Source: Microcaldota archaeon (GTDB lineage: Archaea; Micrarchaeota; Micrarchaeia; Anstonellales; J096). From it: DNA of 37,236 nt. The notes under the pieces were generated by a model. The model searched no databases, was not told where the DNA came from, and saw only the letters and a list, made by a program, of their open reading frames with translations. Shown in pieces: positions 3,093-29,770 of the stretch. The position numbers were made by a program, and so were the translations under genes. The stretch is taken from assembly GCA_027024255.1 (NCBI GenBank), contig JALVSQ010000022.1, positions 1-37,236 of the forward strand, read 5' to 3'. The first letter of the stretch is position 1, and each line of letters starts with the position of its first letter.

Positions 3093-3093
3093 C

Positions 3094-10613: not shown

Positions 10614-10615
10614 GC

Positions 10616-11227
10616 ATGAAGCTTTCAGATGTAATAGATTTAGAAGTGAATGGTTTATTTGTTTTGCTTAACGGTAAGGCTTTGAGTGGAAAGCATTACA
10701 GGTTTGATTGTCTAAAGGGCACATATCCTTTGAAGTTTGAATCTACTGATGTTGCTTTTATTGAGTATAAAGTCACAGAAAAAGATGGCTTTACTTATTC
10801 TCTATTTATCATTCCTCCCAGACTTGTTGGCGGCTTTTATGTAAAAACAACTGCTCATAAATCAAGCGATGATGCAGTTCAGTTAATATGGGGAAGAGGG
10901 GCTATACTGGCTCATTACCTTAATTCAGACCTTTCTGTGTCCATAAAGTCAGGTTTGTTTTCTCCTGTGGAAACTGTTAAGATAGGCAAAGACTGGATAT
11001 ATACTCTTTACAATTTCGGGAAAGAGAAAGTAATCTTTCTTGTTAAGTACAGGGAGCCATGGTCAAATACATCCTTTATTAAGGATAATGAAGGAGAAGC
11101 TTTCTTTTTCAAGTCAGATGGTTCAACAATAAAAAACACCAATTATCTCGTTGCAGATATAACTGAGTTTGTACCTTCTCAAAAAAGTTTGTTAAGAGAA
11201 TTAGAGGATTTAATCCACAATGCCTAA
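10616..11227 (+). CDS. Protein of unknown function, beta-rich (203 aa)
   Basis: I do not recognise a family. The sequence is rich in beta strands and aromatic residues (FTYSLFIIPPRLVGGFYV, VIFLVKYREPW), with no leader or membrane helix. The start ATG at 10616 has a strong Shine-Dalgarno site (AAGGAGG at about 10602-10608) within the end of the upstream coiled-coil gene. Its 3' end overlaps the convergent aIF2-gamma gene by 18 bp. The two-gene unit 10266-11227 carries no hint of pathway. Confidence 0.7.
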   Translation: MKLSDVIDLEVNGLFVLLNGKALSGKHYRFDCLKGTYPLKFESTDVAFIEYKVTEKDGFTYSLFIIPPRLVGGFYVKTTAHKSSDDAVQLIWGRGAILAHYLNSDLSVSIKSGLFSPVETVKIGKDWIYTLYNFGKEKVIFLVKYREPWSNTSFIKDNEGEAFFFKSDGSTIKNTNYLVADITEFVPSQKSLLRELEDLIHNA

Positions 11228-12394
11228 TCCTGCCAACCTCCATCTATGACCTATCCTTCTACTTATAGCTATTTTATCTCCTTTAACAGCAATGACAGGT
11301 CTCTTAAGCCTGACAATTGCTCTTTTCTTTTCTAACTTTACAATCACTCCTGATGTTGGTGTTGCATGAATGTTTAGAAGCAGGGGTTCACCCTCCTTTA
11401 GCAATGGATTTTCAATGTCCTTTCTTTTAAGCAATGAATACTTTAACCTTAATTCAGATGTTTCTTCAGGCAGAGTTCCTTTTAATCCCATAAGCCTTCC
11501 AGCCAGCAAATCTGATTTTGTTAGAGAGGGGTCAAGCAAAGTGCCAAATGCAATTAATCCACCTGGCTTTGCCTCTTTTAAATCTTCTGAACCTGACTTT
11601 AAAGATGTAATTTTTGTGCTTAATCTTACATAACCACTTTCAGTCCTTATTCCAGGAGCAATTTCGACCTCGTCTCCTACTTTGAAAACACCCTGAACAA
11701 TCGTGCCACCTAAAACACCACCCACCATTTCACTTACCTTTTTTCCCGGCTGGTTTATATCAAAACTCCTTATGATATAAGCAATGGGCTTTTTACTTTC
11801 ATCTCTTTCAGGTGTTGGAATAAACTTATCAATTGCTTCAATTACATAATGAGCATTCAGGTTGTAGGTTGAAGAAACAGGGATTATAGGTGCATTTTCA
11901 GCAACAGTTCCTTTAACGAAGTTCTTTATTTCTTTGTAGTTCTCAATGGCTCTTTCCTTGCTTACAACATCGACCTTTGTTTGAACTATGACTATGTTTT
12001 TTACACCTAAGAGTTCCAGTACCATTAAATGCTCCTTTGTTTGTTCCTGAGGACATTTCTCATTTGCAGCGATTATGAACAATGCCCCGTCTATTACTGC
12101 TGAGGCAGAAATAGCTGTTGCCATCAAGCTTTCATGACCAGGAGCATCCACAAATGAGACCTTTCTCTTTAACTCTGTTTTTGAGCCGCAGAAAGGGCAC
12201 TTTGTTTTGTTTGAATACATTTTACATTTTTTACACTGCCTTATCTCCATATCAGCATAACCTATCTTTATAGTTATACCTCTTTTTATCTCCTCGCTAT
12301 GTGTATCTGTCCACTTACCTGTAAGCATTTTGGTTAGTGTAGTTTTTCCATGGTCTACATGTCCAAAAAGACCTATGTTGAGCTCAGGCTGCAT
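11210..12394 (-). CDS. eif2g: Translation initiation factor aIF2 subunit gamma
   Basis: This is the GTPase subunit of the archaeal initiation factor that delivers Met-tRNAi to the small ribosomal subunit. Seen in order: G1 GHVDHGKT (11-18), switch-region RGITIKIGYAD, a zinc knuckle with two C-x2-C pairs (CKKC and CPFC), G3 DAPGHE, G4-like TKVD, and the two beta-barrel domains. The length of 394 residues is normal. I chose the ATG at 12394, which has an AAGGAGG site a few bases upstream. The longer reading frame to 12451 would add an implausible basic tail lying within eS6. The start overlaps the eS6 gene by 11 nt. The eS6-aIF2-gamma pairing is a common archaeal operon. Confidence 0.97.
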   Translation of the reverse strand: MQPELNIGLFGHVDHGKTTLTKMLTGKWTDTHSEEIKRGITIKIGYADMEIRQCKKCKMYSNKTKCPFCGSKTELKRKVSFVDAPGHESLMATAISASAVIDGALFIIAANEKCPQEQTKEHLMVLELLGVKNIVIVQTKVDVVSKERAIENYKEIKNFVKGTVAENAPIIPVSSTYNLNAHYVIEAIDKFIPTPERDESKKPIAYIIRSFDINQPGKKVSEMVGGVLGGTIVQGVFKVGDEVEIAPGIRTESGYVRLSTKITSLKSGSEDLKEAKPGGLIAFGTLLDPSLTKSDLLAGRLMGLKGTLPEETSELRLKYSLLKRKDIENPLLKEGEPLLLNIHATPTSGVIVKLEKKRAIVRLKRPVIAVKGDKIAISRRIGHRWRLAGLGIVD

Positions 12395-13761: not shown

Positions 13762-14460
13762 GTGAAGTATTACAAAACAACTGTTTCAATTATGCTGGGT
13801 GTTTTAGGTGTTGTTTTAAGTGCTTTTAATAATATTATTGGCATTCCAACAGGCTTCGGTATGACGGTTGATTTAGCTGCTGTGCCTGTTCTTGTTGCTG
13901 CATTTGTCCTTGGAGCAAGGTATGGGGTTTATGCTTTAAATGTTTTATTTCTTGGCATTCTCTTTACTTCACCAACAGGCTTTATAGGAGGTACAATGAA
14001 GTTCATTGCAACTGCTCCTCTTATATTTGTTCCTTATTTTATGAACAGGGGATTGTTGAGAGGCTTTGCTTTTTCAATTGCTATTCTGATTGCTCTGTTT
14101 AGCCTTCCTGCCCTGGCCTTCACATTTAATCAGTTTTTAGGAGCATTACTTTTCCTTTTAGCTGTTGTTTTAATCGCTTATTCCACAGGAGAGGATAGGA
14201 TAAGTCCTTCGCTGTTTGGTTTTGTCCTCGCTGTTGTGGTTAGATGCATTATTACAGTAATAACAAACATCTATTTTGCAGGTCCTCTGTTTTTCAAGAT
14301 GTCTCCTGATGAACTTATTGCCTTTGTAGAATCTATTGGATTACCTTTTGCAAAGTCAAGTGTCTACGCAATCATATCTTTCTGGAACATAATTCAGAGC
14401 ATTGTTGAGTGGAGCATTGCTTATTACATCTCCTTTTACAGACTTAAGCATAAGTATTAA
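13762..14460 (+). CDS. ECF transporter S component-like membrane protein
   Basis: This 232-residue protein has about six membrane helices and begins with a GTG codon. The segment with VDLAAVPVLVAAFVLGARYG (near residues 35-55), followed by a mid-protein GFIGGTMKFIAT, is typical of substrate-binding S components of energy-coupling factor vitamin transporters. In these, the S subunit captures a vitamin or trace metal and works with the EcfT/EcfA module. No EcfT or EcfA gene is present in the window, so a shared module elsewhere is required, or the protein works alone. The substrate cannot be read. A PP2C-like gene starts 27 bp downstream on the same strand. Confidence 0.75.
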   Translation: MKYYKTTVSIMLGVLGVVLSAFNNIIGIPTGFGMTVDLAAVPVLVAAFVLGARYGVYALNVLFLGILFTSPTGFIGGTMKFIATAPLIFVPYFMNRGLLRGFAFSIAILIALFSLPALAFTFNQFLGALLFLLAVVLIAYSTGEDRISPSLFGFVLAVVVRCIITVITNIYFAGPLFFKMSPDELIAFVESIGLPFAKSSVYAIISFWNIIQSIVEWSIAYYISFYRLKHKY

Positions 14461-14487: not shown

Positions 14488-15417
14488 GTGAGACTTAGAA
14501 AACTCAAACAACCTGAACTCCAAGCATTTAAAGGGTTTAACCGACTTAGAAGAGGGAATGTTAGATTTGGACATGAGGAGTTTAATATAAAAATAGATAA
14601 AGATTTTTTAGCAGAAGAAGTGAGTATAAAAGGTTCCTCTCACTCCACCAATGAAGACAAACTTGTTTTTAAAGTATCAAAAGGTGTTGGATATGCGTTT
14701 GCCATAGATGGAATCAGTAAAGGAGGCCTGGGAGCTTCTTCATCAAGCAAATGGAAAGATGTTATTGAGGACATAAGTGTTAATCCTTATGGAAAGAAGG
14801 CTGTTAAAATAGTTAAAGAGTTCAGGAAAAAAATACTTAAGGCACTTAAAAGAAGTGAAGAGGAATTAATAATCTTAGAGAATGCTGTTCTTTCAGGCGT
14901 TGTATTCTTTAAGGAAGGAGATGAGTGGAGATATATTTTCATTTACGGTGGAGATGGAGGCTTTGCCATTGTAGGTGATAGGGTTTTTTCTCCTCTTGCA
15001 GAGGGCGTAGAAAAGATGCCTGTTGATATTAGAAAGCATTTATCCCTTAATGGAAACCTGGTGCATCCTTTGCTTTTAGATGAATCATTTGAAGTTAAGC
15101 ATTGCTCTTTGCTAAAACATGAGGATTTTATGAAGGAAGGCTTTCCTCTAACAATACCTTCATTTGTGCCTGTGTTTGCTTTCAGGAGAGAGTGGTTTGA
15201 CCCTCTCGTTGTTTATACAGATGGCTTAACAGAGGCTTATCTTGGCTATGCAGGGAGGTTTTCACCTGATTCCTATGCGAGGTTTATGAAAGCGCTTGCC
15301 AATGATAAAATAGGTGCTGATGAGTTGAAGGCATATGCCAAGAAGTTTAGAGAGACAAGAGGAATTTCAGGATGGGATGATATAAGCTATTTGGTGGTTA
15401 AAAAAAGTAGTGAGTAA
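14488..15417 (+). CDS. PP2C-like protein phosphatase, variant family (309 aa)
   Basis: The protein carries the metal-binding landmarks of PP2C phosphatases in order: NED at 55-57, DGIS at 74-77 in place of the usual DGHGG, GDGG at 155-158 in place of GDS, TDGL at 244-247, and DDIS at 297-300. The first, second and last aspartates that hold the two Mn/Mg ions are conserved, so it may be active. It would dephosphorylate Ser/Thr. The segment DIRKHLSLNGNLVHPL (180-195) recurs in the product at 26995-28206 (DIVKHIHPLGNIV). The first 40 residues are basic. The start is a GTG with a TATTAAAAAC core 20-30 nt upstream, so the mRNA is probably leaderless. It converges on the 869-residue protein gene. 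Confidence 0.8.
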   Translation: MRLRKLKQPELQAFKGFNRLRRGNVRFGHEEFNIKIDKDFLAEEVSIKGSSHSTNEDKLVFKVSKGVGYAFAIDGISKGGLGASSSSKWKDVIEDISVNPYGKKAVKIVKEFRKKILKALKRSEEELIILENAVLSGVVFFKEGDEWRYIFIYGGDGGFAIVGDRVFSPLAEGVEKMPVDIRKHLSLNGNLVHPLLLDESFEVKHCSLLKHEDFMKEGFPLTIPSFVPVFAFRREWFDPLVVYTDGLTEAYLGYAGRFSPDSYARFMKALANDKIGADELKAYAKKFRETRGISGWDDISYLVVKKSSE

Positions 15418-15429
15418 AAAAGAAGGGAT

Positions 15430-18039
15430 TTATTTTCCTTTTCCTTTGGTTGTTGTTTTTGGCTTAACTAGACTGTAAAGCATCAACAGGTACATTGCCA
15501 GAGAGGATGTTTTTCCTGCAAATCTATATAATCCATAAGGCAGTTTTATACCTATGAATGAAAGGGCATTTAATCCAAACAATGCTGCTATTGCAACATC
15601 TCTTGCAAGTGTTAGGTAAGCCTCTGTTAATTTGCCCTCTTTCTTTAATCTCTCAAAGTTATCTTTAATGTACTTTATTTGACCTATTAAAGAGAGTATC
15701 ATTGAAATTGCTGCTATTATGCTTGTTATTGTAAATACTACTGACCATACAGGTGCAGTTGCAATTCCAAGAAGTCCAAGCACACCTCCGAGAATCATTG
15801 CTCCATAAGAGACCTTTGCCAGTCCATTTCTTATTTTGGTTATTTTATCTAACAATGTCTCCTGTTGCTGTTGCTGTTGCTGTGTTGTATCTGTTTCTTC
15901 CCCTACCTTTGTCTTCTGGAATGTTGTTACAATTTCTGTCTCTTCTATCTTTGATTTACCCTTTTCTTTCTTTATTCTAAGTTCTAAAGATTTATATGTG
16001 TAAACTCCAATTACCCCAGCGCTTGCTATTTTCTCTTTTTTAATCAATATTGCTTTATATCCTTTCTTTCCTTTCAACAGAATGATTCTGCTCATGTTCC
16101 ATTTACCGGCATTTCCTTTCTTCTTCATCCATTCTATCAGGGCAGTTGCGGCATCTTCTGGCAGTACTTTGGAGGCTTCTATCCATTTCCCTTCTTTATT
16201 TCTTATGTAAACCTTTCCATCTGCCCCCAGATAAACTGAAGAATCTATCTGGAGGGAATAACTTGTGTATTCTGTGTTTCCATCAGGTTTTGGCATTGCT
16301 TCAACAACCGAACCATCCTTTTGATAGTAGACAACAGGTTGCCACCCAGCTTTTCCACCAACTTTTCTGAAGGAAATATTAATTGTTTTAGCTCCTTTTG
16401 GAATCGCCACCGTGAGTGAAGGTTTTTTGTCTCCTTTCTTCTGGAATATTGCAAATGTAACTCCTCTCTTTTGGGCAAGAGGCTCTAAAATGTTAACCAA
16501 CGCGTTCAACTTAATGATTGATGATGATGTAAGCCCTGCAAGGCGGTCGCTGTTTACCCCCATTACCTGGAAAATAACACCTTCTTTATTGTCAGGAGGT
16601 AGGACAAGATAGTAAGATACTCCTTCAAGTCCGCTCTGGGACCATCTGAAGCTTAGAGACCCATCCTTCATTTTCTCTATATTTACCTTTCCTTTTATAA
16701 TAAGGTCTCCAACCTGTGAGGGAATGCTGTATGTTTTCCCGTCGTATTCAAAAGTGATAAGTTTACCCTTCTTTTTACCATTTTTTATGGCCTCTGCTAT
16801 CTTCTTCTTTTCTTCATCAGACAATTCTGTAACAGAAGGAGGTGGTGCTGTTTCTTCCCCTTCTTTATAGAACTTAAGAACTAAGGTGTTTGTTTTTACA
16901 ACCCTGCCTTTTCTTGCAGTAGCTTTAAGCACCCATTTACCACTCTCTTTCTTTACTTCAAAGTCAACTTTATAGCCTCTGAAGGCATAAGAATGCTTTT
17001 TCTTAAGGACTTTAACCAGTTTCTTGTATACTTTTTCAGCATTATCTCCTTCTTTGAGTTTAGCCTCTTTAATTAGTTTCGCTACAAATTTTAAGGAGTA
17101 GGATGTTACTCCGCAGTTTCTGAGTATGAAGGTTATTAGCTCTTCTATAGCTTTACCATACTTGCCTTCTTCTACTGCTTTAAAGAAAGTATCAATTTCC
17201 TCCCGGGTTAAGCCTGCTTTTTTCAGAATATCGTTATATTTTCCATTCCAGAAATACTCTACCTGCTGGTTTAGAGAGATTCTATTAGCATGTTGTGGAG
17301 TGGGGTGGTCTTCATCTTCTTCCTCTTCTTCATGTGATTCTTCTTGCTGCATCCTCTGTATTTTGGGGTTGCGCCACTCTTCATACTTCTTTAATTTTCC
17401 CTGATGAAGAGATGAAAATTTTTTATACTTTGATAGATCACTTGAGGTTGATTCTGAAACATTGTAATCATAAGCGTCTTGGTTAACTGCTAGTATTGTA
17501 GGAGCTTCATGTGTGGTTGGGGCTTGTCCAGGACCGGGTACTAATACTTCGCCCGTTCCTCTTACCAATAAATAGTAGTTTTCATTCTCTTCAACAACCA
17601 AAATAAGAGGAACATTACTTATGACTTTGTTTCCTTCTATGTCTATAACCCATTTCTTTCCCTCTTTCTTAGCTTCTATGGTTATGTCATCTCCTCCATG
17701 AAGCCACCCCTTTCTTTCTATTCTTATTTCAAATCCATTTCTGGTAATCCTGATGGTAATTTCTTTTTTATTTGGCACATGCCCATAAAAGTTCAATATA
17801 TTGCTTAGAGTATAAATAAGGGCAAGCCTTTCATCTGTTGTCTTATCCTTTGTGACAAGCGCCTGGGCTAAATTATTTAAATTTTGTTCTGGAAGACCTT
17901 TTTGTTTAAGTTTTTCAAGTTCTTCTTCCAGTACTTTTGCTTCTCCTTCACTTATTATTCCATCTTCCTTTGCTTTTTCTATAATTTTCATATATGCTGG
18001 TTGCTCTTGCGTTGTCACAAGGTTATACACAAACACCAT
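15430..18039 (-). CDS. Large modular protein with poly-Gln tract and C-terminal membrane region (869 aa)
   Basis: No known family is recognised. The first 745 residues appear to contain about four copies of a loose alpha-plus-beta module, each with a short helix then strands ending in patterns such as KKEGKKWVIDIEG (first) and KKESGKWVLKATA (second). Linkers are acidic (EEEEEDED), proline-rich (GPGQAPTTHEAP) and glutamine-rich (seven Gln before the membrane region). Residues from about 745 hold four hydrophobic segments. There is no signal peptide, so the soluble part is probably cytosolic with a C-terminal anchor. I chose the ATG at 18039, preceded by GGTGGAGG. The in-frame TTG at 18054 is less likely. 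The reverse-strand TTTTTAAATA near 18075-18084 is a probable TATA box. It is divergent from the 2221-residue gene. Confidence 0.8.
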   Translation of the reverse strand: MVFVYNLVTTQEQPAYMKIIEKAKEDGIISEGEAKVLEEELEKLKQKGLPEQNLNNLAQALVTKDKTTDERLALIYTLSNILNFYGHVPNKKEITIRITRNGFEIRIERKGWLHGGDDITIEAKKEGKKWVIDIEGNKVISNVPLILVVEENENYYLLVRGTGEVLVPGPGQAPTTHEAPTILAVNQDAYDYNVSESTSSDLSKYKKFSSLHQGKLKKYEEWRNPKIQRMQQEESHEEEEEDEDHPTPQHANRISLNQQVEYFWNGKYNDILKKAGLTREEIDTFFKAVEEGKYGKAIEELITFILRNCGVTSYSLKFVAKLIKEAKLKEGDNAEKVYKKLVKVLKKKHSYAFRGYKVDFEVKKESGKWVLKATARKGRVVKTNTLVLKFYKEGEETAPPPSVTELSDEEKKKIAEAIKNGKKKGKLITFEYDGKTYSIPSQVGDLIIKGKVNIEKMKDGSLSFRWSQSGLEGVSYYLVLPPDNKEGVIFQVMGVNSDRLAGLTSSSIIKLNALVNILEPLAQKRGVTFAIFQKKGDKKPSLTVAIPKGAKTINISFRKVGGKAGWQPVVYYQKDGSVVEAMPKPDGNTEYTSYSLQIDSSVYLGADGKVYIRNKEGKWIEASKVLPEDAATALIEWMKKKGNAGKWNMSRIILLKGKKGYKAILIKKEKIASAGVIGVYTYKSLELRIKKEKGKSKIEETEIVTTFQKTKVGEETDTTQQQQQQQETLLDKITKIRNGLAKVSYGAMILGGVLGLLGIATAPVWSVVFTITSIIAAISMILSLIGQIKYIKDNFERLKKEGKLTEAYLTLARDVAIAALFGLNALSFIGIKLPYGLYRFAGKTSSLAMYLLMLYSLVKPKTTTKGKGK
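15862..15882 (-). repeat. CAG/CAA alternating microsatellite encoding seven glutamines
   Basis: Twenty-one bases repeat the hexamer CAGCAA three and a half times on the coding strand. Alternating synonymous codons keep the tract from being a pure trinucleotide run. It lies just before the membrane region of the 869-residue protein and may serve as a flexible linker whose length can vary by slippage. Confidence 0.85.
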
Positions 18040-18211
18040 CTTCCTCCACCTCAATATACTTTTTTCAACGAACTATTTAAAAATAATATTGGTGTGTTAT
18101 TTTGTGGATTTTTATGTGGTAAGCTGGCAATTGCATTCGTGACACAAACGAACCCGGATTAAAACACAATAATTAAAATACCTTTTCTCCATTATTTAAT
18201 CAGGTGAGTTC
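18040..18211. promoter_or_regulatory. Divergent regulatory region between the two large genes, with an inverted repeat
   Basis: At 172 bp this is the longest intergenic gap in the window. It has a minus-strand TATA-like core (18075-18084), and plus-strand cores TTAAAATA (about 18173-18180) and GATTAAAACAC (about 18156-18166). An inverted repeat TTCGT/ACGAA (18136-18140 and 18148-18152) with a 7-nt spacer sits between the promoters and could be an operator for a dimeric regulator. Both large genes have Shine-Dalgarno sites and so have short leaders. Confidence 0.45.
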
Positions 18212-21200
18212 ATGCAAAAGCTTGCAAAACAAACCATAACAGGGGTTGAAGAGCTCAGCTACGAGCAGTTAAAAACCATGATAAATGAGCAGATAAGCGA
18301 TATGGAGGAGAAGGAAAAATACGAACAAATCCTGAACTCAATAGAGCAGGAATCAAATGAAGAAATCAAAAAGAAGAAGGCATTAGCCTTATTCCTGCAC
18401 ATTCAATTAATGAAAACTCAGGAACATATGCCAGATGAGTTAAAGGGATATGCCAATTCCTTCCTCTCAGAGTTTAGTCTTGAAAACTTCAGCAACTGGG
18501 ATTACGAGAAGTTTAAAGTAGGTGCTCTCCTTATTGTTACAGCCTTTGCATTAGGAAAGATGAAGGAGAAGGCACCGGATAGAAGGTTGAGAAGAGCCAT
18601 AAATTACACTTACTCGGGTATAATTGAAATATTGAAGGAAAACAACCTTACAGATCAAAGTTTTGCCGCAGTAAAAAGAAACTTCAACTACATTACAGAG
18701 ATGTTTAAGTTAATATATGCAAGAAAAGGACTTTTAAAGTACTATTCAGGTATCAAAACCTCAACATTGAAGATGCTCGGTTACTTAACAAAAGTTGAAA
18801 AGGGTTTTAACATAAACATAAAAGCAAAGGGAATAATATTATCCAACTATAAAACCCTTCAGAGCCTTTATACAAGATCACTTTCAGAAATAGATGCTGC
18901 TATAAGCAAACTTGAAAACGCTATTCTCAATGCTCAGGAAACCAAAATAGACACACCTGTAACAGGAGCATTCATGAAGCAGGCTCAGAAGCTTGGGGCT
19001 TTGATAAATACAACATCAAAGTATGTGGGAAGCGCACTGGCATTCGGTACTGAGGTAAGCAAAACAATGCAGATTATCTCCTTAGCAGGTAAGATGAACG
19101 CAGGTAGCAAACGAGCAAGTCAGAGACAGGTGAAAATACTGAGTAAAAAAATGGATGAAATCATTAACTTCCTTAAATCCTTTGACCCTGAGAAAAAATT
19201 AAATGTTAAAGGAAAGGACCCTGAATTAACATCTCTGTTTTCCTTTAAAGGTAAGAATATTCCACCTGTGTTTGCCTCTGTCCACTCAGTTGAGGATATG
19301 AAAAAAGTTGAAACTAAATTCGCAAAATCTTATGGGACAATAATATATGGTGAGGTAGAAAGAGCTTATTACATTGGCTTAAAAGATGTAAATTTAGATA
19401 CCGGATTTCTTGGTAAGATGTTTGGATTTCTGGGAATAAGAAAACTAACAGGATATGAAATAACACAAAGAGATGTTGATATTGTAAGGTATGAAACAAA
19501 GGATGGTAAGAAAGGTTTTGTTTTGAGAAATGCTTTAAGAGGAGAAGAAAGATGGTTCAGCATTGATGAGTTAAGAAAAGATGGGGTTTTTCTTAGGGCA
19601 AAGGACGATGAGGTTGTTCTCAATACAAAAAGGGCTTTAGAACTTGTTTTCTCCAACTACAAAAAAGCAATGGATATACTGAACAAATACAGAAAAGGCA
19701 AGAAGTTTGATCTTGAGGGTTTAAGAAAGGCTGTCCAGGAAGCACAGAAGTACATTGCAAAGGCACAGATGTATCTGTTTTTGCTTGAATCTGAGTACGA
19801 AGGAGGTTTGTATACAACAAAAGAGATGAAGATGGTGAGTGACTCTCTTACAGCAATAACTATCCTGGCAACAGCATTAACACTGGGAGCAGGTGCTGCA
19901 GCTCTTGCAGGGCAGGGCCTTACAAGGGCAGGACTGGCAGCAGCATGGAGAGCGATAGGTGGAGGAGTAACAGAAGGTATTGCTGGTTTGATGGGCAGGG
20001 CAGGTAATTTATTATTCATAAGCACAATAGGAGAAGATTTACTGCTAAAAGGTGTTTCAAAGGCTTATGGAGCAGATGTTTCATGGACAGACATAGGGGT
20101 AGATGTCCTCTTCCTTTTAAGTCCTGTGGCAAGGGCTTTGAGAGGAACATCAACACTTGCCAGAATAACTAAGGGAACTATTGCAGCTGGTGTGGGAGCA
20201 GCTGCTGGTTATGTTGGTTATGAATCTGTAAAGAATGTCTGGGAAAAGAAGAAAAGAGGAATGAAAGTAGGGTTTGAGGACTACATGGGTTTAATATGGG
20301 GTATGTGGGCTCTGACAGGAGTTGCTCATTCATTTGCAGAGATTAAGGCTTCTATTAAAGGCAGTAAACCTCCTACCCCGCTTCTATCAGGAGAAGCTAA
20401 TAAAGAGCTTCCAATGCTTCCTTCGGGAGAGAAACCCAAGGCACTTCCTCCAGGAGAAACCAGACCACCTGTGCCCAGAAAGACAGGTCCTCAACCTGAA
20501 ATTGTGGTTAAAGAAGACCCCCATCTATGGGGGGATATACTAAGAAATGAGCGTGTGAGAAAGGTTTCTCCGGAGAAAGACGGGTTTAAGGTAGAACTTG
20601 ATTTAATGAAAATAGAGGCAACAAAGGAAGGAAAGATTGTGAGGGTTGAGATGGATGCAAAGAGGTTTAAGGAGGTCTTTCCTGGCTATGAAATAGAGGA
20701 AGGTTCTGTATCTTTGAACAAGGAAAAAGGAGTGGTTGAATTCAGGGTTAAAAGAAAAGGTAAGGTTTATGAGGCAAGATATGACCTCAGGAAAGGTGAA
20801 GCATCCGTAAAGATAGATGGAAAATGGGAAACACTACCAAAGATACTCCATCCCAGGCTTAAAGGAGAGAGCGATAATGAAATGACAGTCCTTAAGCATG
20901 GAGATGTTGAGGTGTACCTTGTCAAAAACAAAGGAGCAAAGCATCCAATGCAGGACGGAGTTGTGGTAATAGAGCAAAGGGTGGGCAATGCAAAAGTAAG
21001 GATTGCTTTCAGCCTTGATGGTATAAGCGGTGAAACAGGTGCTGAGTTGGCTGTAGAGGCATTCATAGAAGCATGTAAGGAGCTCAGGCTGGAGCCAGGA
21101 GATGTAGTGTCGGGAAATGAAGTCAGGCCTGAAGAGCTTTACAGAAAAGTTTACGAAAAAATAAGGCAGAGATATATGGAAATTCTTAAAGAAAAGATAA

Positions 21201-24200
21201 AAGAAAGGTATGAGGAAGCGTTTAGAAAGAAGTACGGGAAGGCTCTGAAAAGACTCATGAAAGGGTATGAAAGTGGCAGGATCTTTGACTTTGAAAACCC
21301 AGAGGTATTAAACAAGATGGCAGAGAGTTTAAAGATAGGATTCGTTCACAACATGTATGTAGAGGTTTCGTACGGAGGTAAGGTTCACCGCTACATACTG
21401 AGGAGCGGTGATGGAGAGATATTTGCAATTACTAAAAAGGGAGAGGTTGTGTTCCCCAGAGTAGAGGGAGGAGGTGAAGGTGCGGAGACAGTTGCAAGAG
21501 CGAGTCATTATATATATGGGTCAGAAGTTGATCCTCTAGAACATCCCCTCCATAACCTTGATGCAATAAGAGAAGGAAGAAAGAGATTTAAGAAGCTCAG
21601 GTTGGGCGACACAGTAGGGGATATTAAAAAGGGGAATATTGAAGATTATTGGAACATCTACGAAATTCCAGAGAATGCTGAATTCGTTGTCTTTGGCAGT
21701 GATGGCATACTTGATCTGTACGAGTTTGCTAGGTCAGAAGGAATGGTGGGAAGTTATCAGGAATTTTTGAAGAGACTTGCCGCAGATAGGGGATTCAGGA
21801 ATGAACTGATTGAAAAAATTAGGAAGTCAGGGCTAAAACATGATGATATTTCACTTGTTATAATGAAGGTGGGTGAGAAGACCCCGTCATCTGTTATAAG
21901 AATAGGCCCTGAGCCGTTGGGTCCAGAAAAAGCTGGAAAACCAGAAGGCAAGGCAGAGAAGGCTAAGCCACCTGAAGAAAAACCACCACAAGAAAAACCA
22001 CCTGAAGAAAAAGTCAGAAGTGACAAGGAGTTCATTAACTTAGATAAGTTAAATGCTGAAAATATAGATAGGGAGGAAATTGGAGGAGTTATTTATACCA
22101 CTCCAGAAGGAGAGCAAATCAGGGTGAATATAGAGAGCATAAGGAAGTATCTGAGCGAGGATGTGCTGAGGGCTTATAAAGGAGAAAAAGGTTTCAATGA
22201 AGAGGTATTCAGGGAGCATCTTCCCTTCTCAGAAGAAATAAAGAATGTGATAGTTAAGATTGCTAAAGAGAGAGCACAAAAACTTAAATCTATCAATATG
22301 GAAGAGATTCTTTCGGAGAAGGTAAATAATGGAACGCTTACAGATGTTGCCCGGGAATTTGCAGGATTTAATAAAGAAGGTGAGAAGGTCAGGCCTTCAA
22401 ATCGTTTAAAAGAAGGATATAATTGGGTCAGGCAGAAGCTTGGAAAGAAGCCGGTGGATATAACTAATTTGAAAGGAGAGCAGAAGAATTTCATTGACAA
22501 CTTTTTAAAAGCAGCTAAAACACCCGGAGAACATCCAGAGGCTTATACAGTGAAAATAGGAGAAGAAACCTATGCATTGATAAATGAGGACCTTTTCCTC
22601 AATGCATTGAGATTTAATCCAAGAGATGGAGCAATAAGGGCATGGATAGAAAGAGGCCTGCCTTTAACATATGAGGAGTTCCTCCACAGGCTGGGTCTTT
22701 TAGGAAAGGACTTCAAAAAGGTCCTTATAATAAGGAAAAGGATAGGTTTGAGAAGGAGGTTTGATGTTGTTGAAATCACCAATTTAAAGTCTCTCTACTA
22801 CAAGTTAAGAGAAATCTCTTCAAGAGCGTTCAAGGTAGAAGGGAAGAAAGTAACTGTTGTTAGTGAAGAAGCGCTTAAAGAGATTAAAATGCCTGAGTGG
22901 ATGAAGAAGAAGACAATAAAAGTGCTTCAAGATGCTTTAAGGGAAAGGTCGTTTAGAAAGCTCTTAAAGAAAGCAAAGAAAATAGAGGAAAAATTGAAGA
23001 AAAGGCTGGAAGGAGAGATTCCTGAAGATGAGCTAAAGAAGGTAAAACCGGGTGAAATAGTCACAATAAGAAGGAAAGGATTGATTAAAGGAAAGAAGAT
23101 TCAGGCAGCCCATATAGAAGACTTTGTTAAAGACTTCGAAAGCATAAACTCAGGAAAGGACTTGAACAACTTCATGGAGAAGTATGGCTCTGTTGATGTT
23201 ATTGTTTATAAAGATGCACAGGGAAACATGCGTTACTTTGAGATTTATGGAAAAGAAGACCTGAGGAAGGTTGTGCTCGAACTGGATAATGTTAAAGGCA
23301 TTAATGATAAAAATAAAGGAATGTATATTGCCAGATTGAAAAACATAATGCCTGAGGATAAAGCTAAAGCAATAGCAAATAAAGTTGAAAAACTGGTGAA
23401 TGAGAAAGTGATAAAACCATCAAAAACACTCAGGGAACTTCCCAGGATAATAGGAGAAGAAGGGGAGCTTAATCTTGGAGACCAATTAATAGAGAGGCTT
23501 CAAAACCATGAGGTTGTTGAATTCAACGGAAATAGGTACATGCTTGCCGATGATTTTGTTGATATGATGTTTGCATACGAAAATCCAGTGGAGATGATCA
23601 AAGCCTTGGAAGCTAAAGGAAAACTGCCCAACTACCTTGTTTACGGTGAAGGCAAAACCCCCAAGGTTGTTAAAATAGAGCCTAACACCCTTATAGAAAA
23701 GCTTGTTCCTGGTATTGCGAACGATGCTATTTTATGGGAAGATATAGAGTTATTTGTAAAGCCCAGGAAATTTACACTAAAGCCCAAGAAGTTTATAAAC
23801 TGGGTGAAAAGACCTTTTGCAAGGAAGCTGGTTTTTGATGCAGAGGAGTATGCAAGATACTTAATCCACAGGTATAAAATACCAAGAGAACTGGCAGAAT
23901 CAATTGCAGCCCATACAAAGGTAAGGATGGATGCTGTTCTTGATGTAGCAAACATGAGAAGAGAGTTCCTTCCCAGAATGAAGGAAGTAAATGAAGGAAT
24001 GGCAGAGCTTAGAAAGATAGCAACCACGGAAGAAGGATTAAAAGAAGTACGTGAAGGAGTTTACTCCTTTAGAAAGCCACCTGAGAATGCTGAGGTTTAC
24101 AGGGTGGCCATTGCTCTTGATAAAAGCGGAGCAGAAGCAATAAGAGATGTGGTTAGGTGGCTCAAGAAAAAGGAAATACCATTTGAGCTCCATACAAATC

Positions 24201-24877
24201 CCGATGATGGAGCATCAGTGCTGAGAATATTTGTTGATAAATCAAAGGTTGAGGCTGTAAAAGATGCAGTAAATACTATCTTAAGAGAAAGGGTCCGCGG
24301 GCTGGCACTTACAACAGGTTATGTATTCAAAGAAGGAAACAAACCTATTAATGCCCAGCTGAAGTTCAGGAGGAAGTATTTAAAGATTTGGAAGGCAGCG
24401 CACGAAGGGAAGTGGAAGAAAGTGGCAGAAATAGCAGGAATTCCGTTCAAAAAGTTAAAGGAGATAGAAGAAGCGAATAGAGCCTGGTTAAGGAAAATGA
24501 GGGATAAGGGCTTCTTTGGCAAGGTAGCAGCATCTGGAATAGACATCGGTGAAAGACTCTTTGTTAACTCTATTATCTGGGGTATTGGCCTTTATCTTGC
24601 CAATGCTACAGGCGTTATTCCAAAAGGCTCTCCATTAGATTGGGTAATGAAAGGATCTGCGTCTTTCCTTGTCTGGACTACGCCGTATCCAAAAGGCATA
24701 GGGTGGAAATGGAAGCCTCTCATGGTACTTGCTGCCCTCGGCATTGTTGGAACAGCAATAGAGAAGATAATAGAAAGACAAGTTTTTGGCTCCTCAGGTT
24801 CTGGTAGCTCAAGAATACATTGGGAGACAGGTGAGCATGATAAAGATAATAAAAAGAAAGAAAAGAAAAAGAGCTAA
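18212..24877 (+). CDS. Giant multidomain protein with internal PP2C-like phosphatase domain (2221 aa)
   Basis: Layout by residue: 1-540, helical, coiled-coil-rich; 542-710, glycine/alanine-rich hydrophobic region with several potential membrane helices; 713-770, proline-rich linker; about 890-1220, PP2C-like domain with MQD 913-915, DGIS 936-939, GDGE 1066-1069, SDGI 1163-1166 and DDIS 1211-1214; about 1230-1270, second Pro/Glu/Lys linker with three PPxEK repeats; 1270-2100, charged alpha/beta modules, of which at least two (near 1435-1500 and 1765-1820) look related; 2110-2190, C-terminal hydrophobic segments; then a Ser/Gly- and Lys-rich tail. There is no signal peptide. The ATG is preceded by AGGTGAG. 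The domain order suggests a membrane-tethered signalling or scaffold protein with a cytosolic phosphatase. The role is unknown. Its last 4 bp overlap the convergent reductase gene. Confidence 0.88.
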   Translation: MQKLAKQTITGVEELSYEQLKTMINEQISDMEEKEKYEQILNSIEQESNEEIKKKKALALFLHIQLMKTQEHMPDELKGYANSFLSEFSLENFSNWDYEKFKVGALLIVTAFALGKMKEKAPDRRLRRAINYTYSGIIEILKENNLTDQSFAAVKRNFNYITEMFKLIYARKGLLKYYSGIKTSTLKMLGYLTKVEKGFNINIKAKGIILSNYKTLQSLYTRSLSEIDAAISKLENAILNAQETKIDTPVTGAFMKQAQKLGALINTTSKYVGSALAFGTEVSKTMQIISLAGKMNAGSKRASQRQVKILSKKMDEIINFLKSFDPEKKLNVKGKDPELTSLFSFKGKNIPPVFASVHSVEDMKKVETKFAKSYGTIIYGEVERAYYIGLKDVNLDTGFLGKMFGFLGIRKLTGYEITQRDVDIVRYETKDGKKGFVLRNALRGEERWFSIDELRKDGVFLRAKDDEVVLNTKRALELVFSNYKKAMDILNKYRKGKKFDLEGLRKAVQEAQKYIAKAQMYLFLLESEYEGGLYTTKEMKMVSDSLTAITILATALTLGAGAAALAGQGLTRAGLAAAWRAIGGGVTEGIAGLMGRAGNLLFISTIGEDLLLKGVSKAYGADVSWTDIGVDVLFLLSPVARALRGTSTLARITKGTIAAGVGAAAGYVGYESVKNVWEKKKRGMKVGFEDYMGLIWGMWALTGVAHSFAEIKASIKGSKPPTPLLSGEANKELPMLPSGEKPKALPPGETRPPVPRKTGPQPEIVVKEDPHLWGDILRNERVRKVSPEKDGFKVELDLMKIEATKEGKIVRVEMDAKRFKEVFPGYEIEEGSVSLNKEKGVVEFRVKRKGKVYEARYDLRKGEASVKIDGKWETLPKILHPRLKGESDNEMTVLKHGDVEVYLVKNKGAKHPMQDGVVVIEQRVGNAKVRIAFSLDGISGETGAELAVEAFIEACKELRLEPGDVVSGNEVRPEELYRKVYEKIRQRYMEILKEKIKERYEEAFRKKYGKALKRLMKGYESGRIFDFENPEVLNKMAESLKIGFVHNMYVEVSYGGKVHRYILRSGDGEIFAITKKGEVVFPRVEGGGEGAETVARASHYIYGSEVDPLEHPLHNLDAIREGRKRFKKLRLGDTVGDIKKGNIEDYWNIYEIPENAEFVVFGSDGILDLYEFARSEGMVGSYQEFLKRLAADRGFRNELIEKIRKSGLKHDDISLVIMKVGEKTPSSVIRIGPEPLGPEKAGKPEGKAEKAKPPEEKPPQEKPPEEKVRSDKEFINLDKLNAENIDREEIGGVIYTTPEGEQIRVNIESIRKYLSEDVLRAYKGEKGFNEEVFREHLPFSEEIKNVIVKIAKERAQKLKSINMEEILSEKVNNGTLTDVAREFAGFNKEGEKVRPSNRLKEGYNWVRQKLGKKPVDITNLKGEQKNFIDNFLKAAKTPGEHPEAYTVKIGEETYALINEDLFLNALRFNPRDGAIRAWIERGLPLTYEEFLHRLGLLGKDFKKVLIIRKRIGLRRRFDVVEITNLKSLYYKLREISSRAFKVEGKKVTVVSEEALKEIKMPEWMKKKTIKVLQDALRERSFRKLLKKAKKIEEKLKKRLEGEIPEDELKKVKPGEIVTIRRKGLIKGKKIQAAHIEDFVKDFESINSGKDLNNFMEKYGSVDVIVYKDAQGNMRYFEIYGKEDLRKVVLELDNVKGINDKNKGMYIARLKNIMPEDKAKAIANKVEKLVNEKVIKPSKTLRELPRIIGEEGELNLGDQLIERLQNHEVVEFNGNRYMLADDFVDMMFAYENPVEMIKALEAKGKLPNYLVYGEGKTPKVVKIEPNTLIEKLVPGIANDAILWEDIELFVKPRKFTLKPKKFINWVKRPFARKLVFDAEEYARYLIHRYKIPRELAESIAAHTKVRMDAVLDVANMRREFLPRMKEVNEGMAELRKIATTEEGLKEVREGVYSFRKPPENAEVYRVAIALDKSGAEAIRDVVRWLKKKEIPFELHTNPDDGASVLRIFVDKSKVEAVKDAVNTILRERVRGLALTTGYVFKEGNKPINAQLKFRRKYLKIWKAAHEGKWKKVAEIAGIPFKKLKEIEEANRAWLRKMRDKGFFGKVAASGIDIGERLFVNSIIWGIGLYLANATGVIPKGSPLDWVMKGSASFLVWTTPYPKGIGWKWKPLMVLAALGIVGTAIEKIIERQVFGSSGSGSSRIHWETGEHDKDNKKKEKKKS
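21968..22012 (+). repeat. Three tandem 15-bp repeats encoding PPEEK/PPQEK/PPEEK
   Basis: Units CCACCTGAAGAAAAA, CCACCACAAGAAAAA and CCACCTGAAGAAAAA follow one another without gaps inside the second linker of the giant protein. They encode an extended charged proline-rich spacer directly after the PP2C-like domain. Confidence 0.9.
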
Positions 24878-25509
24878 CCCCACCCCTCGGCTTTAACCTT
24901 CCCTCCTTTTTCTTCTATATAACCTTTAAATGAATCAACAAAGCCTTTGCTCCCGCATAAAAAGTAGGTGTAATCACTGCCAAGATAAACATCCTCAGGA
25001 GCAAACCTGCCGTGTTTAAAGCCTTTAACCTCCTGTCTTGTGAATGTTATGCTTACATCAACATTCCTTATCATCTTCAACTCGCTTAAATAAGGCATAT
25101 TTGCATTCCTGAAGCTGAGGAATGCCTTAAAACTTCCTTTAACATTGTTTAACTCTATATGCCTCATTATTGAGAGCAGAGGAGCAATCCCTGCACCTCC
25201 TCCTATGAACACAGCTTTACTCTCTCCTTCGTAAATAAACTTGCCCATGCCCTTACTTATATCAAATGCTTTACCAACATCTGCTTCTTCAAGCAGGCTC
25301 GTCATCTTTCCCTTTATAAAATGAATGAAGAGCTCAATGTACTCAAACTCAGGAGGTGAAGCAATTGAATAAGGCCTGAATAAACCTGTTTCTAAGTCTT
25401 TAAGCAAAACGAACTGGCCAGGCCTGAATTCAACCCTCTCCTTTTCAGGAAAGAACCTTAGAATACCCAGCTCTCCACTCATCAACTTACTGAGTAATAC
25501 ATACTTCAT
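24874..25509 (-). CDS. Ferredoxin-NADP reductase-like FAD/NAD(P)-binding oxidoreductase
   Basis: The 211-residue soluble protein has the FNR two-domain layout. An N-terminal FAD-binding barrel carries RPYSIAS (45-51), and a C-terminal nucleotide-binding domain carries GGGAGIAPLLS (103-113) and a late CGSKGFVDSF segment that normally contacts the nicotinamide. There is no 2Fe-2S cysteine cluster, so this is a stand-alone reductase that passes electrons between NAD(P)H and an unknown carrier. It could serve the Suf system or a flavodoxin/ferredoxin, but the neighbours do not say. The ATG at 25509 is divergent from the TctA-like gene over 51 bp. Confidence 0.88.
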   Translation of the reverse strand: MKYVLLSKLMSGELGILRFFPEKERVEFRPGQFVLLKDLETGLFRPYSIASPPEFEYIELFIHFIKGKMTSLLEEADVGKAFDISKGMGKFIYEGESKAVFIGGGAGIAPLLSIMRHIELNNVKGSFKAFLSFRNANMPYLSELKMIRNVDVSITFTRQEVKGFKHGRFAPEDVYLGSDYTYFLCGSKGFVDSFKGYIEEKGGKVKAEGWG

Positions 25510-25560
25510 GAATGATTAAGAAAGAGAACATTAAAAATACTTTTCCCAAACATAACTCCA
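25510..25560. promoter_or_regulatory. Bidirectional leaderless promoter, reductase / TctA-like gene
   Basis: A single core TTAAAAATA at 25531-25539 is exactly centred: 21 nt to each start codon (25509 minus, 25561 plus). No ribosome binding site precedes either ATG, as expected for leaderless messages. Confidence 0.5.
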
Positions 25561-26628
25561 ATGCTTTTAGCTTTTCTAATAGCAGTATTCATAACCTTAA
25601 TTCCTGGCCTACACATAAACACAATTTCTGCATTACTTTCTCAGTACATAGATGACCCTTATTTTTATCTTCTCCTTATGGGTGCTTATGTGCCTTTAAC
25701 AGCACTACCCCTGCTTTTATTCAATGTCAGCGAGGAATCAGTTGCTTCTTTACCTGCTTTGCAGAGAGCATCAAGAGAAGAACCATCTAAGGCAATCTCT
25801 TATTACATTATCTCGACCCTTCTTTCCTCATTCATCGCTCTGTTCATTCCTTCAGGTGTTTTTTCCCTTCTTTATTCTGTAATAAAACCATATCTTTTTT
25901 ACATAGTTCTTGGTTTCTCACTTGCCTTATTAATAAAAACAAAAAGGATGCTTGGCCTCTTTGCGTTCATCCTCTCAGCATTGATAGGCTACATCTCTCT
26001 AACATCAAAAATGGCAGAACCCTTTTTACCCATGTTCTCCGGCTTTTTTGCAATTCCTTTCATATTACTATCAACTCCTTCTAAAAACATGAACATAAAA
26101 CCTGTGTTTGAATTAAGCATATTAAGGCCTTCAATAATTGGTTCTTTACTCGGCATACTTGCTTTAATGCTTCCAGGCATAAGCTCGCCTTCTGTTGTTG
26201 CCATTCCATTAACCCCTTTGCTTAAATCGTTTGATTACATTGCTTTAACAAGCGCTATAATGTCATCTGAATACACCTTAAGCATTCAAAACTTTTATGA
26301 AACAGGAAAGAAAAGAATAGGTGTTGTTGGAATAATAAAGAGAGTTGAGAATGCTAAGCTTTACATATTCTCAGGTGTTTTAGTTGGCAGTGGATTGGCA
26401 TTTGGTTTGTTGAGGTATCTTAAGCCCTCAAGGACAAGAGCAGGCAAGTATTTGACTATTGCTTACTTAACATTAATCTCATTTCTTCTTAACGGTGTTT
26501 ACGGAATTTTAATACTTGCCTTATCATCACTACTTGGCTTAATAGTTAAATTGAACAATGTGAATGCCAGTGTTTTACTCGGCTCCATCATAGGAACTAC
26601 TCTCTACTACCTGCACTTCTCTGCTTAA
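25561..26628 (+). CDS. TctA/DUF112-family membrane protein
   Basis: This 355-residue protein has about nine to ten membrane helices. It shows the paired Pro-Gly motifs of the TctA family, LIPGLHINTISALL near residues 13-26 and LMLPGISSPSVVAIP in the second half, which form the inverted-repeat transport core. Bacterial TctA is the large subunit of tripartite tricarboxylate transporters. The archaeal relatives occur without TctB/TctC and have no assigned substrate. None of those partners is present here. Its 3' end overlaps archease by 4 bp. Confidence 0.8.
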   Translation: MLLAFLIAVFITLIPGLHINTISALLSQYIDDPYFYLLLMGAYVPLTALPLLLFNVSEESVASLPALQRASREEPSKAISYYIISTLLSSFIALFIPSGVFSLLYSVIKPYLFYIVLGFSLALLIKTKRMLGLFAFILSALIGYISLTSKMAEPFLPMFSGFFAIPFILLSTPSKNMNIKPVFELSILRPSIIGSLLGILALMLPGISSPSVVAIPLTPLLKSFDYIALTSAIMSSEYTLSIQNFYETGKKRIGVVGIIKRVENAKLYIFSGVLVGSGLAFGLLRYLKPSRTRAGKYLTIAYLTLISFLLNGVYGILILALSSLLGLIVKLNNVNASVLLGSIIGTTLYYLHFSA

Positions 26629-27008
26629 ATATCAAACACAACCTCTATTTCTCCATCATCTACTTTTAGCTGGTGGTATGTTACTGCCTTTATTATTGCA
26701 TTTGGACTTCCTTTTCTGCATTTAATTTTAGCCCTTATTTTTCCCTTCTCTACTTCTATGCTTTCAACACTTAAAGGAATTAATCCTTTTATCTCAATCT
26801 CGCTCAGCACATCGCTGAGTAGGTTTACAACCATATCCTCTTTTGTTTCTCCCTGGCTTTCTACAATCAGATGAGTGTCTCCATTACCTTCTGCTTTAAC
26901 AATGTCAAACATCACTTCAAGCAATTCTTTAAGTGCCTTTTTGAAGCAAGGAGCTTTAACCCTTACCTTTATATCCCCTGTATGCTCTAAAAACTCATGC
27001 ATACTCAA
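26625..27008 (-). CDS. Archease
   Basis: The 127-residue protein matches archease throughout: FLEHTGDI near the N-terminus, a central helical pair with LLSDVLSEIE, and the C-terminal IIKAVTYHQLKVDD ending with a strand VVFDI. Archease activates the RNA ligase RtcB, allowing multiple turnovers in tRNA splicing and RNA repair by promoting its guanylylation. It binds a metal through conserved Asp residues. RtcB is not in the window. Its start overlaps the upstream PP2C-like gene by 14 nt, so the two share a message. ATG at 27002 (third codon) is a possible alternative start. Confidence 0.95.
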   Translation of the reverse strand: MSMHEFLEHTGDIKVRVKAPCFKKALKELLEVMFDIVKAEGNGDTHLIVESQGETKEDMVVNLLSDVLSEIEIKGLIPLSVESIEVEKGKIRAKIKCRKGSPNAIIKAVTYHQLKVDDGEIEVVFDI

Positions 27009-28206
27009 TCACAACATAGCTTGTATCATCTCTTGGATAAGGCAAACTATTTTTAATAAAGGAAGGCGTGAGTGAGCCGTCCATTGCTTTTCTTATAATC
27101 CTCTCATGAATCTCTTTGGTTTTACCTAAATCATCAAATTCATTCTCATAATACTCATTTATACATAAGTCATCCAATCCATCGGTATAAACAATGGCCT
27201 GGATGGGCTTTTTGGTTTCTAATTCAAAGACCAGAGGCCTTCCTTCAACTAAGAGATTGAAAATCCTTTCACCATCTTCACCATTCTTGATTGATGCATA
27301 AGGCTTACCTGAGATGAACCCCCTTGTATTGACAATATTGCCTAAGGGATGTATGTGTTTTACAATATCAAATGGGACATATGCATCATCTACCTTTACA
27401 TTTAGCCCTCTTATATAATCACCTATTTTAAATCCAACCCCTCCATCTCCATTGATTATAAATATCGTTCTATAATTTCTCTTCTTTTTGTCGTAGAACA
27501 TTATTGCTCCTGAAAAGGTTGCGGAAATAAGTAAATCAGGCTCTTTGGTACTGTTAATTATTTTGTTTCTTATCAGCTCAGCTATCTCAACATCACTTTT
27601 CCCTTCTATTTCTTCAACGTTTATATCAAGGGATTCAATTATCCTTTTGTATTCTTCTGCTGCTTTTGTTCCATTTGCCCCTTCCATACTTATTCCATCT
27701 ATGGCAAACGCAATAATAACTTCTTTTCCTTCTTTAACAGCAACTCTATCCTGATTTTCATGCTCTGTTCCTTCAACAGAAAGATAAGAGTACTTAAACT
27801 TTCTTTTATGCTTTGCGCCTTCTTTTCTCAAAAGCTCCTTTACTTTGTTCCTCAACCCGGCTGCTCTTGGGATTATCTCAGGAGAGGCTCTTCCGCTTTC
27901 TACCTTTTCAACTCTTCTTATAAGCTCATCAGGTGTGTAAGCTTCATGACTTCCTTCCAGATAGATATTAAAGTTACTTATTAGCGCCTTTAATTCATCG
28001 AAGTTTTCCGCAAGTTTTATGAATTCGCTGATGACCTTTTCTCTCAACCCATCCTTTCTTGTTAAAACTCTTGATTCTCCATGTATAATAAAAATGCTTA
28101 TCCTCTTGTTTTTTTCCTTCCCATCTTTATCCTTTCCGAATTCTTTCTTTAACTCTCTTTCCTTAGCAATAATTTTTTCAACGAGTTTGCCAGTGAGCCT
28201 GTACAT
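26995..28206 (-). CDS. PP2C-like protein phosphatase, variant family (403 aa)
   Basis: A charged helical N-terminal extension of about 135 residues precedes a PP2C-like domain with NQD 151-153, DGIS 170-173, GDGG 253-256, TDGL 341-344 and DDTS 393-396. These match the motifs of the 14488-15417 product and of the giant protein. The metal-binding aspartates are kept, so activity is plausible. The N-terminal region (FIIHGESRVLTRKDG, then a helical pair) is not recognised and may sense or localise. The ATG at 28206 lies about 20 nt after a reverse-strand TTATAAATAC core (28227-28236) that overlaps the end of lysS, giving a leaderless mRNA that also carries archease. Confidence 0.82.
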   Translation of the reverse strand: MYRLTGKLVEKIIAKERELKKEFGKDKDGKEKNKRISIFIIHGESRVLTRKDGLREKVISEFIKLAENFDELKALISNFNIYLEGSHEAYTPDELIRRVEKVESGRASPEIIPRAAGLRNKVKELLRKEGAKHKRKFKYSYLSVEGTEHENQDRVAVKEGKEVIIAFAIDGISMEGANGTKAAEEYKRIIESLDINVEEIEGKSDVEIAELIRNKIINSTKEPDLLISATFSGAIMFYDKKKRNYRTIFIINGDGGVGFKIGDYIRGLNVKVDDAYVPFDIVKHIHPLGNIVNTRGFISGKPYASIKNGEDGERIFNLLVEGRPLVFELETKKPIQAIVYTDGLDDLCINEYYENEFDDLGKTKEIHERIIRKAMDGSLTPSFIKNSLPYPRDDTSYVVIEYA

Positions 28207-28230: not shown

Positions 28231-29745
28231 TTATAAGCAATCTCTTTTTACCCTTTCAATGCCAAGAGCATATATCAATTTTCCGAGCCTTGGCCCTTTA
28301 TCTTTGCCTATAAGTGTTTTATAAACAGCTTTAAACATCTCCTTTGGCTCTATACCTCTTGACCTGCTAAACTCATACACAGAGTTGTGAATGTCTAATG
28401 CATTCATCCCTTCTTTCAAAGATGATAAAAACTCTTTAACAACACCATCTGCTTTTACAGGTTTGTAAGAAAAATCGTAGTCATCAGGCACAAAGCCCTT
28501 TTCAATCCATCTTTTTATGTAAGGCAATATGAATCCCAAACTTTCTTCATCAATATTAAGGTGTAGCTTTACCTTGCTTAAATCTTTGTAAATTTGATAA
28601 TACATTAAAACCTCTCTAAATGAGCCTTTCCATTCCCTTTGACCTGCCAATTCATAGGCCATCCATTTTTTTCTCTCAGCCCTTGTCATCTCCTCCACTG
28701 GTTTATTTAACATAGATGTTCTTTCATAATCTTCAATTATATGAAGTATATTTTTCTTTGTTGGATTGAAATCAATGTTCTCTTTTAAATCAAATTTTAG
28801 CAGATGATAGGCAATTACATTTGCAGGAATTAACTCAATCATCTCCTTTACTGACATACCTGTGCCTTTGCTTTTAGAGAACTTCTTCCCTTTTAAAAGA
28901 ACAAACCCGTACTTAAACCCGATTGGAGGTTCTTTTTTGAAGAATGCCTTGAATATGGCAACACCTGTGTCCCTGCTTCCCCCCTTTGTAAAGTGGTCAA
29001 CACCCCCTCCTTCTGCTGAGCTGTTGAAGTAATGCCACCACGATGGCCAATGAAGCCTCCACTGGAGCTTGTATTTATGCTCTTTTATGCTCGATTTACC
29101 CTTATAGCCACAGCCTTTAACATAACCAGCATCTGAACTGCATGAGTATTCATAGACAACATCATTTTCAATAACCTCATGCTTAAGAACAACTGTTGTG
29201 CTTATTTTTCCGCAATTCTTGCATATAGGCATTATAGGGTTCCATGTCTTTTTCAATTGCCTTTTGCTTACCCTCTCCAGTATTTCTCTAACTTTAGCTA
29301 TATCCTTAATGAACATCAAAGCATATTTATCAAATGCTCCTGATGCATAAAGCTCATTTGCTTTAACTATCTCTGCCTTTACATTCATTGCTTTCATAAT
29401 GCTAATAGCCTCATCTAAATAATGCTCTCCAAAGCTTTCATGGCATCCAAAAGGGTCAGGTACTGTATAAAGTGGTTTTCCAAGATGTTCTTTGAGCATT
29501 TCACTATACTTTTCAACTGATTTAGGAATGGAGTCAAAGGCATCCATTATATCAGCAACAAAGTAGAACTTTACCTTCTTCCCTTTTTTTCTTAATACCT
29601 TTGCTATTGCATTTGGAAAAAGGAACTCGCAGACAGTGCCAAGATGTGCAGGGCCTGAAGTTGTCATTCCACCTGTTATTACATATGGTTCCTCTTTACT
29701 CTTTATTATTTCATCTGCTATCCTCTCTGCCCAGTGGTAGTACAT
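28231..29745 (-). CDS. lysS: Lysyl-tRNA synthetase, class I
   Basis: This 504-residue enzyme charges tRNA-Lys. It is the class I form found mainly in archaea and some bacteria, not the class II form. Evidence includes the HIGH-equivalent SGPAHLGT in the first 45 residues, the KMSKS-equivalent KFSKSKGTG, the conserved LQWRLHWPSWW segment and a GGVDHFTKGGSRDTG active-site region. Cys pairs (CKNCG and a later CSS/CGY group) suggest a zinc site. I chose the ATG at 29745, which lies 24 nt after a TTTAAA core (29770-29775). The in-frame GTG at 29754 would be too close to the TATA box. Confidence 0.97.
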   Translation of the reverse strand: MYYHWAERIADEIIKSKEEPYVITGGMTTSGPAHLGTVCEFLFPNAIAKVLRKKGKKVKFYFVADIMDAFDSIPKSVEKYSEMLKEHLGKPLYTVPDPFGCHESFGEHYLDEAISIMKAMNVKAEIVKANELYASGAFDKYALMFIKDIAKVREILERVSKRQLKKTWNPIMPICKNCGKISTTVVLKHEVIENDVVYEYSCSSDAGYVKGCGYKGKSSIKEHKYKLQWRLHWPSWWHYFNSSAEGGGVDHFTKGGSRDTGVAIFKAFFKKEPPIGFKYGFVLLKGKKFSKSKGTGMSVKEMIELIPANVIAYHLLKFDLKENIDFNPTKKNILHIIEDYERTSMLNKPVEEMTRAERKKWMAYELAGQREWKGSFREVLMYYQIYKDLSKVKLHLNIDEESLGFILPYIKRWIEKGFVPDDYDFSYKPVKADGVVKEFLSSLKEGMNALDIHNSVYEFSRSRGIEPKEMFKAVYKTLIGKDKGPRLGKLIYALGIERVKRDCL

Positions 29746-29770
29746 AAAGCCCACTTTGGTAGAAAATAAT

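Follow-up and report, generated by a model that had tools for sequence, protein, structure and literature searches.

The locus raises the question of whether three neighbouring PP2C-like products of an archaeal contig are related and active protein phosphatases, and whether they serve one phospho-signalling system. The window (the whole stretch of DNA analysed, 37,236 nucleotides) was one complete contig (C22) of the Microcaldota archaeon assembly GCA_027024255.1, which contained 874,647 bases in 52 contigs and was ~91% complete; the source genome is small and probably archaeal.

Motifs of the three PP2C-like domains

P0001 (14488..15417, plus strand) was found to encode a stand-alone PP2C-like protein of 309 aa, in which the PP2C domain occupied aa ~45-307 (14620-15408, plus strand) and contained the motifs NED57, DGIS (D74), GDGG (D156), TDG (D245) and DDIS (297-298). 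P0002 (18212..24877, plus strand) encoded a 2221-aa orphan with at least two hydrophobic stretches (aa ~545-570 and 2169-2188). The initial annotation had given the coordinates of the whole 6.7-kb gene; the PP2C-like domain was present, limited to aa 876-1223 (20837-21880, plus strand), and contained MQD915, DGIS (D936), GDGE (D1067), SDG (D1164) and DDIS (1211-1212). P0003 (26995..28206, minus strand) encoded a 403-aa protein, with a poorly predicted N-terminal region (aa 1-134) followed by a PP2C domain (aa ~137-403, 26998-27798, minus strand) that contained NQD153, DGIS (D170), GDGG (D254), TDG (D342) and DDTS (393-394). All three products were thus present where they had been described; the strand of P0003 had been left unstated and was found on translation to be the minus strand, the plus strand of the same interval being full of stops.

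The motifs named at the outset were all found in the translations of all three products, in the same order and with similar spacings. The ordered motif string, written as a regular expression, was found in 0 of 5000 shuffles for each of P0001, P0002 and P0003, and among all ORFs then collected it matched these three and a homologue from the metagenome-assembled genome (MAG) J096 only. The motif set in the three products is not a matter of chance.

The aspartates of motifs 1, 2, 8 and 11 were conserved in P0001, P0002, P0003 and the J096 homologue, in agreement with the earlier statement that the metal-binding residues are kept, and in each domain they would bind Mg2+/Mn2+. Eukaryotic and PP2C7 enzymes and those of bacterial Group I carry an Asp in Motif 5 that is required for the third metal (Kerk et al., PMC4524716). 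This Asp was also conserved in all four proteins as GDGG or GDGE, and a third metal would be bound through it. In the Group II enzymes (SpoIIE/RsbU), Motif 5 has His or Asn in place of this Asp (PMC4524716). Because the Motif 5 Asp is kept in all four proteins and missing from Group II, the window family appears from its sequence to be Group I-like, despite a weak SpoIIE match of P0001 in Pfam. A supplementary Motif 8 Asp was found in P0002 (SDGILD), P0003 (TDGLDD) and the J096 homologue (TDGITD), whereas P0001 was found to contain Glu at this site (TDGLTE).

The segment DI-x-KH-x4-GN-[LI]V, which had been reported as an extra element shared by two of the products, was real in P0001 and P0003 and was found in the J096 homologue as well. 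It follows Motif 5 and precedes Motif 8, at the site of RN[LIV]VTSVLG in the canonical relatives, and it may therefore be a degenerate form of the standard motif and not an extra one.

Fold, kinship and distribution

The Pfam PP2C cut-offs (PF00481, PF13672 and PF07228) were reached by none of the three domains. The sole above-noise Pfam match of P0001 was to SpoIIE (16.5 bits against a cut-off of 25, E=0.0084), the isolated P0002 domain gave weak but correctly placed matches to PP2C_2 (19.1 bits against a cut-off of 24) and SpoIIE, and P0003 matched none of the three profiles. No relevant match was found in NCBIfam for the window PP2C-like proteins, and PDB sequence searches with P0001, P0003 and the family profile A2 returned chance matches only. 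The low Pfam scores mark the sensitivity limit of the library and not a biochemical feature; because the subfamily stays under the cut-off of every curated profile, it would escape standard annotation.

The AlphaFold models were built from an input alignment of the four family members and are therefore not fully independent, notably as evidence for P0002. The P0003 model had a mean pLDDT of 64, rising to ~80-90 in much of its PP2C domain, and in Foldseek it matched tPphA, PstP, Stp, RsbX and SpoIIE (E down to 8.2e-9, probability 1.00). The model of the P0002 domain had a mean pLDDT of 56 and matched TAP38/PPH1, PPM1B and TAB1 (E down to 3.6e-6), and all 16 of its PDB matches at E<=0.001 were of PP2C/PPM type. 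The best PDB structural matches of both models were PP2C/PPM phosphatases only, and both P0003 and the P0002 domain would be assigned the alpha-beta-beta-alpha PP2C fold from these models of modest confidence.

The SpoIIE match of P0001 and the presence of SpoIIE and RsbX among the structures matched by P0003 would fit partner-switching phosphatases of the SpoIIE/RsbU type (Group II). This reading of the three products is very unlikely, as it conflicts with the Motif 5 Asp described above, the top structural matches were Group I enzymes, and a SpoIIE-type protein of the relative G059 branched outside the window clade. Within the window, neither an anti-sigma nor a STAS partner was noticed.

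The P0002 domain also exceeded the cut-off for the polymorphic-toxin domain Ntox27 (PF15531), with 25.0 bits against 24 when isolated. The match covered 46 of the 130 profile positions (44-89), only around the DGIS motif, and the full-length protein scored 21 bits, below the cut-off; the rest of the domain contained ordered PP2C motifs and its model matched PP2C structures, so that a toxin domain in place of a PP2C domain is extremely unlikely. Some of the domains, most likely that of P0002, might instead have a PP2C fold without catalytic activity and serve as scaffolds or binding modules, as TAB1 does, since among the three the P0002 domain has diverged furthest and its best structural matches include TAB1. 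This is rather improbable given that every aspartate of motifs 1, 2, 5, 8 and 11 is present and that P0002 carries the supplementary Motif 8 Asp in addition.

P0001 and P0003 were found to share 33% identity over ~220 residues in BLASTP (E=2e-19) and are, on their sequences, clear paralogues. Pairwise BLAST of P0002 against P0001 and P0003 (E=0.09 and 0.004) recovered fragments only, in the right order, and in a single comparison the P0002 domain was found at E=2.7e-5 by a profile of the other members. On the evidence of profile, Pfam, structure and tree, the P0002 domain belongs to the P0001/P0003 clade, although it is far more remote than these two are from each other. The earlier proposal of one variant family had been set against a possible split of the domains into separate clades; in the tree the three domains and the J096 homologue formed one clade (support 100/100 without the long SpoIIE row and 90/85 with it), in a tree with long branches, that of P0002 included, and few outside groups. 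The branching order of P0001, P0003 and the J096 homologue was not fixed, and the duplication may therefore predate the split from J096. A loss of metal ligands in close homologues, also put forward earlier as a test, was not seen, the sole close homologue (J096) retaining all of them.

The three domains probably constitute a paralogous, highly divergent and lineage-restricted PP2C/PPM subfamily whose members most likely act as metal-dependent phospho-Ser/Thr protein phosphatases. Each domain is predicted to hydrolyse phospho-Ser/Thr on proteins, P0001 and P0003 as soluble phosphatases and P0002 as a phosphatase module tethered within a large protein that is probably membrane-associated, and the three would function separately rather than jointly. 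The sub-cut-off profiles and the modest pLDDT values count against the assignment of all three to PP2C, and the weak direct BLAST matches and the long branch count against the link of P0002 to the other two. The subfamily shows how far the PP2C fold may drift with its metal ligands kept.

A profile search of archaeal genomes, suggested earlier, was run, and outside the source genome one homologue was recovered among 301 genomes of the class, in MAG J096 (RFJG01000086.1), which belongs to the same taxonomic family as the source genome; the phylum-level search covered the same number of genomes (301). The J096 homologue was of the same subfamily, with ~30% identity and all the motifs including DI-x-KH-x4-GN-IV, whereas it was present in a single copy on a 4.6-kb contig and had neighbours unrelated to those of the window. 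No further homologues were found in the 301 phylum genomes, IMG/VR, phages, plasmids or a GTDB contig scan: P0003 with profiles A1 and A3 recovered nothing from viral contigs, and P0003 nothing from phages and plasmids. A single-sequence pattern search of the genome contigs with P0001 recovered nothing, and no family copies beyond the three were found in the source genome. A match in G259 (5.5e-4) covered the N-terminal region only. Two weak matches of order members to the P0002 domain (L005 and L006) were rejected, one being a frame with stops and the other lying in GAPDH/UPP-synthase-like genes.

PP2Cs are scarce in archaea (PMC4524716; PMC12088040). The earlier view that they are uncommon in small archaeal genomes held on average, whereas a related group in the same order was found to contain a conserved PP2C and many Hanks kinases. 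The canonical PP2C family of the order (DGVSGE...GDS) was found in 30 of the 301 genomes, mostly of family f3 with some from other lineages, and its best PDB relative was tPphA (E=7e-16). It was absent from the source genome and its taxonomic family, in which no PP2C beyond the window family was found. The canonical gene directly adjoined Trm1 (tRNA methyltransferase), often with overlap, in at least 10 species (L023, L025, L026, L029, L030, L031, L033, L035, L037 and L039). A third PP2C type with DGCGSAK, GDS/GNS, SDGVTN and DDVT motifs was found in order relatives (L024:7851-8969 and L027:9564-10850, both on the minus strand) and had a very long tree branch. A Hanks-type kinase expansion, unusual for small archaeal-type genomes, was found in family f3, mainly in one genus (g12, e.g. 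G033, G042 and G046), where a single 1.5-Mb genome gave as many as 16 Pfam Pkinase matches. The conserved Trm1-PP2C pair of the order together with these kinases may be the more important lead. The literature searched contained no paper that treats PP2C or Ser/Thr kinases in DPANN or Micrarchaeota.

Gene context and candidate kinases

A gene for an ECF transporter S component-like membrane protein (13762..14460, plus strand; below the Pfam cut-off) was found 27 nt upstream of P0001 on the same strand. An 874-aa orphan with C-terminal hydrophobic stretches and no PP2C domain (15430..18054, minus strand) was located between P0001 and P0002, and P0002 stood alone with opposite-strand genes on both sides. 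P0003 was flanked on the same strand by the class I lysyl-tRNA synthetase gene (LysRS; 28231..29754, minus strand), 24 nt upstream, and by an archease-like gene named by sequence inspection (26625..27008, minus strand), which overlapped the 3′ end of P0003 by 14 nt and is possibly co-transcribed with it.

Two further features of the window are recorded here. A conserved module of four genes at 1454-6460 contained a radical SAM protein, proteins of 305 aa and 321 aa and a divergently transcribed AAA ATPase, and the same arrangement was found twice in G003 of the same family (L065 326-5602 and L066 6408-10917), with matches for the AAA ATPase (E=4e-82), the 321-aa protein (E=1e-46) and the radical SAM protein (E=4e-53); the 305-aa protein matched the first G003 copy only (E=4e-8). 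The 247-aa product of 34636-35379 (minus strand), which has a hydrophobic stretch at its N-terminus, resembled a lytic transglycosylase on inspection by eye; such a protein would be odd for an archaeal genome.

The initial annotation had proposed that the large membrane proteins are the centre of a dedicated phospho-signalling system, a reading that the context did not support. The PP2C genes were found on both strands, interspersed with unrelated housekeeping genes. No relatives of P0002 were detectable among 10 genomes searched and none of the 874-aa protein among 296, and the context of the genes was not conserved, the sole outside homologue having a different one in J096. RIO1 had been named as the sole recognised kinase, which was true of the window; in the genome, four small atypical kinases with matches to the Kdo/WaaP, APH and RIO profiles were found on two other contigs (C7 and C25), arranged as tandem pairs at L053:2073-3521 (genes at 2073-2744 and 2772-3518) and L054:9822-11442 (genes at 9822-10646 and 10681-11439). 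These four could be candidate partners only, with nothing tying them to the PP2Cs.

The close grouping of the whole family in 13.7 kb of the 875-kb genome (p about 0.0007 for random positions), with no copies elsewhere and with the two kinase pairs in the same genome, might be read as one pathway shared by the soluble PP2Cs and the giant membrane protein with its PP2C domain, the cognate kinases being encoded elsewhere. The clustering fits local duplication equally well, the two large proteins are orphans, J096 keeps one PP2C without any window neighbour and the kinases lie on other contigs; together with the scattered gene order this makes a single pathway unlikely. It is seriously doubtful that the giant membrane-associated PP2C and its two soluble paralogues counteract the small atypical kinases in a circuit without Hanks kinases in a sub-megabase genome; if true, this would be a distinct kind of archaeal signalling module. 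As a divergent phosphatase subfamily, the three proteins give a limited set on which to test what kinases work against PP2Cs in archaea with reduced genomes.

Comparison with known PP2C systems

With the Group I PP2C/PPM enzymes (tPphA, PstP and Stp1; PF13672/PF00481) the window family was found to share the fold match and, in sequence, the four Asp motifs together with the Asp of Motif 5, whereas it contained DGIS in place of DG[HM]GG, GDG in place of GDS and DD[IT]S at Motif 11, was strongly diverged (below the Pfam cut-offs) and had one copy embedded in a 2221-aa protein. SpoIIE, RsbU and RsbX (Group II, PF07228) belong to the same superfamily and showed weak Pfam similarity at the C-terminal motif, but the Motif 5 Asp separates the window proteins from them. 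The canonical PP2C of the order (alignment A4) is a small stand-alone protein of the same order in which DG[IV]S and DD are common to both families, and comparison of the two family profiles gave 95.6% probability over the N-terminal half; the canonical family was found in a separate clade (100/100) and keeps GDS.
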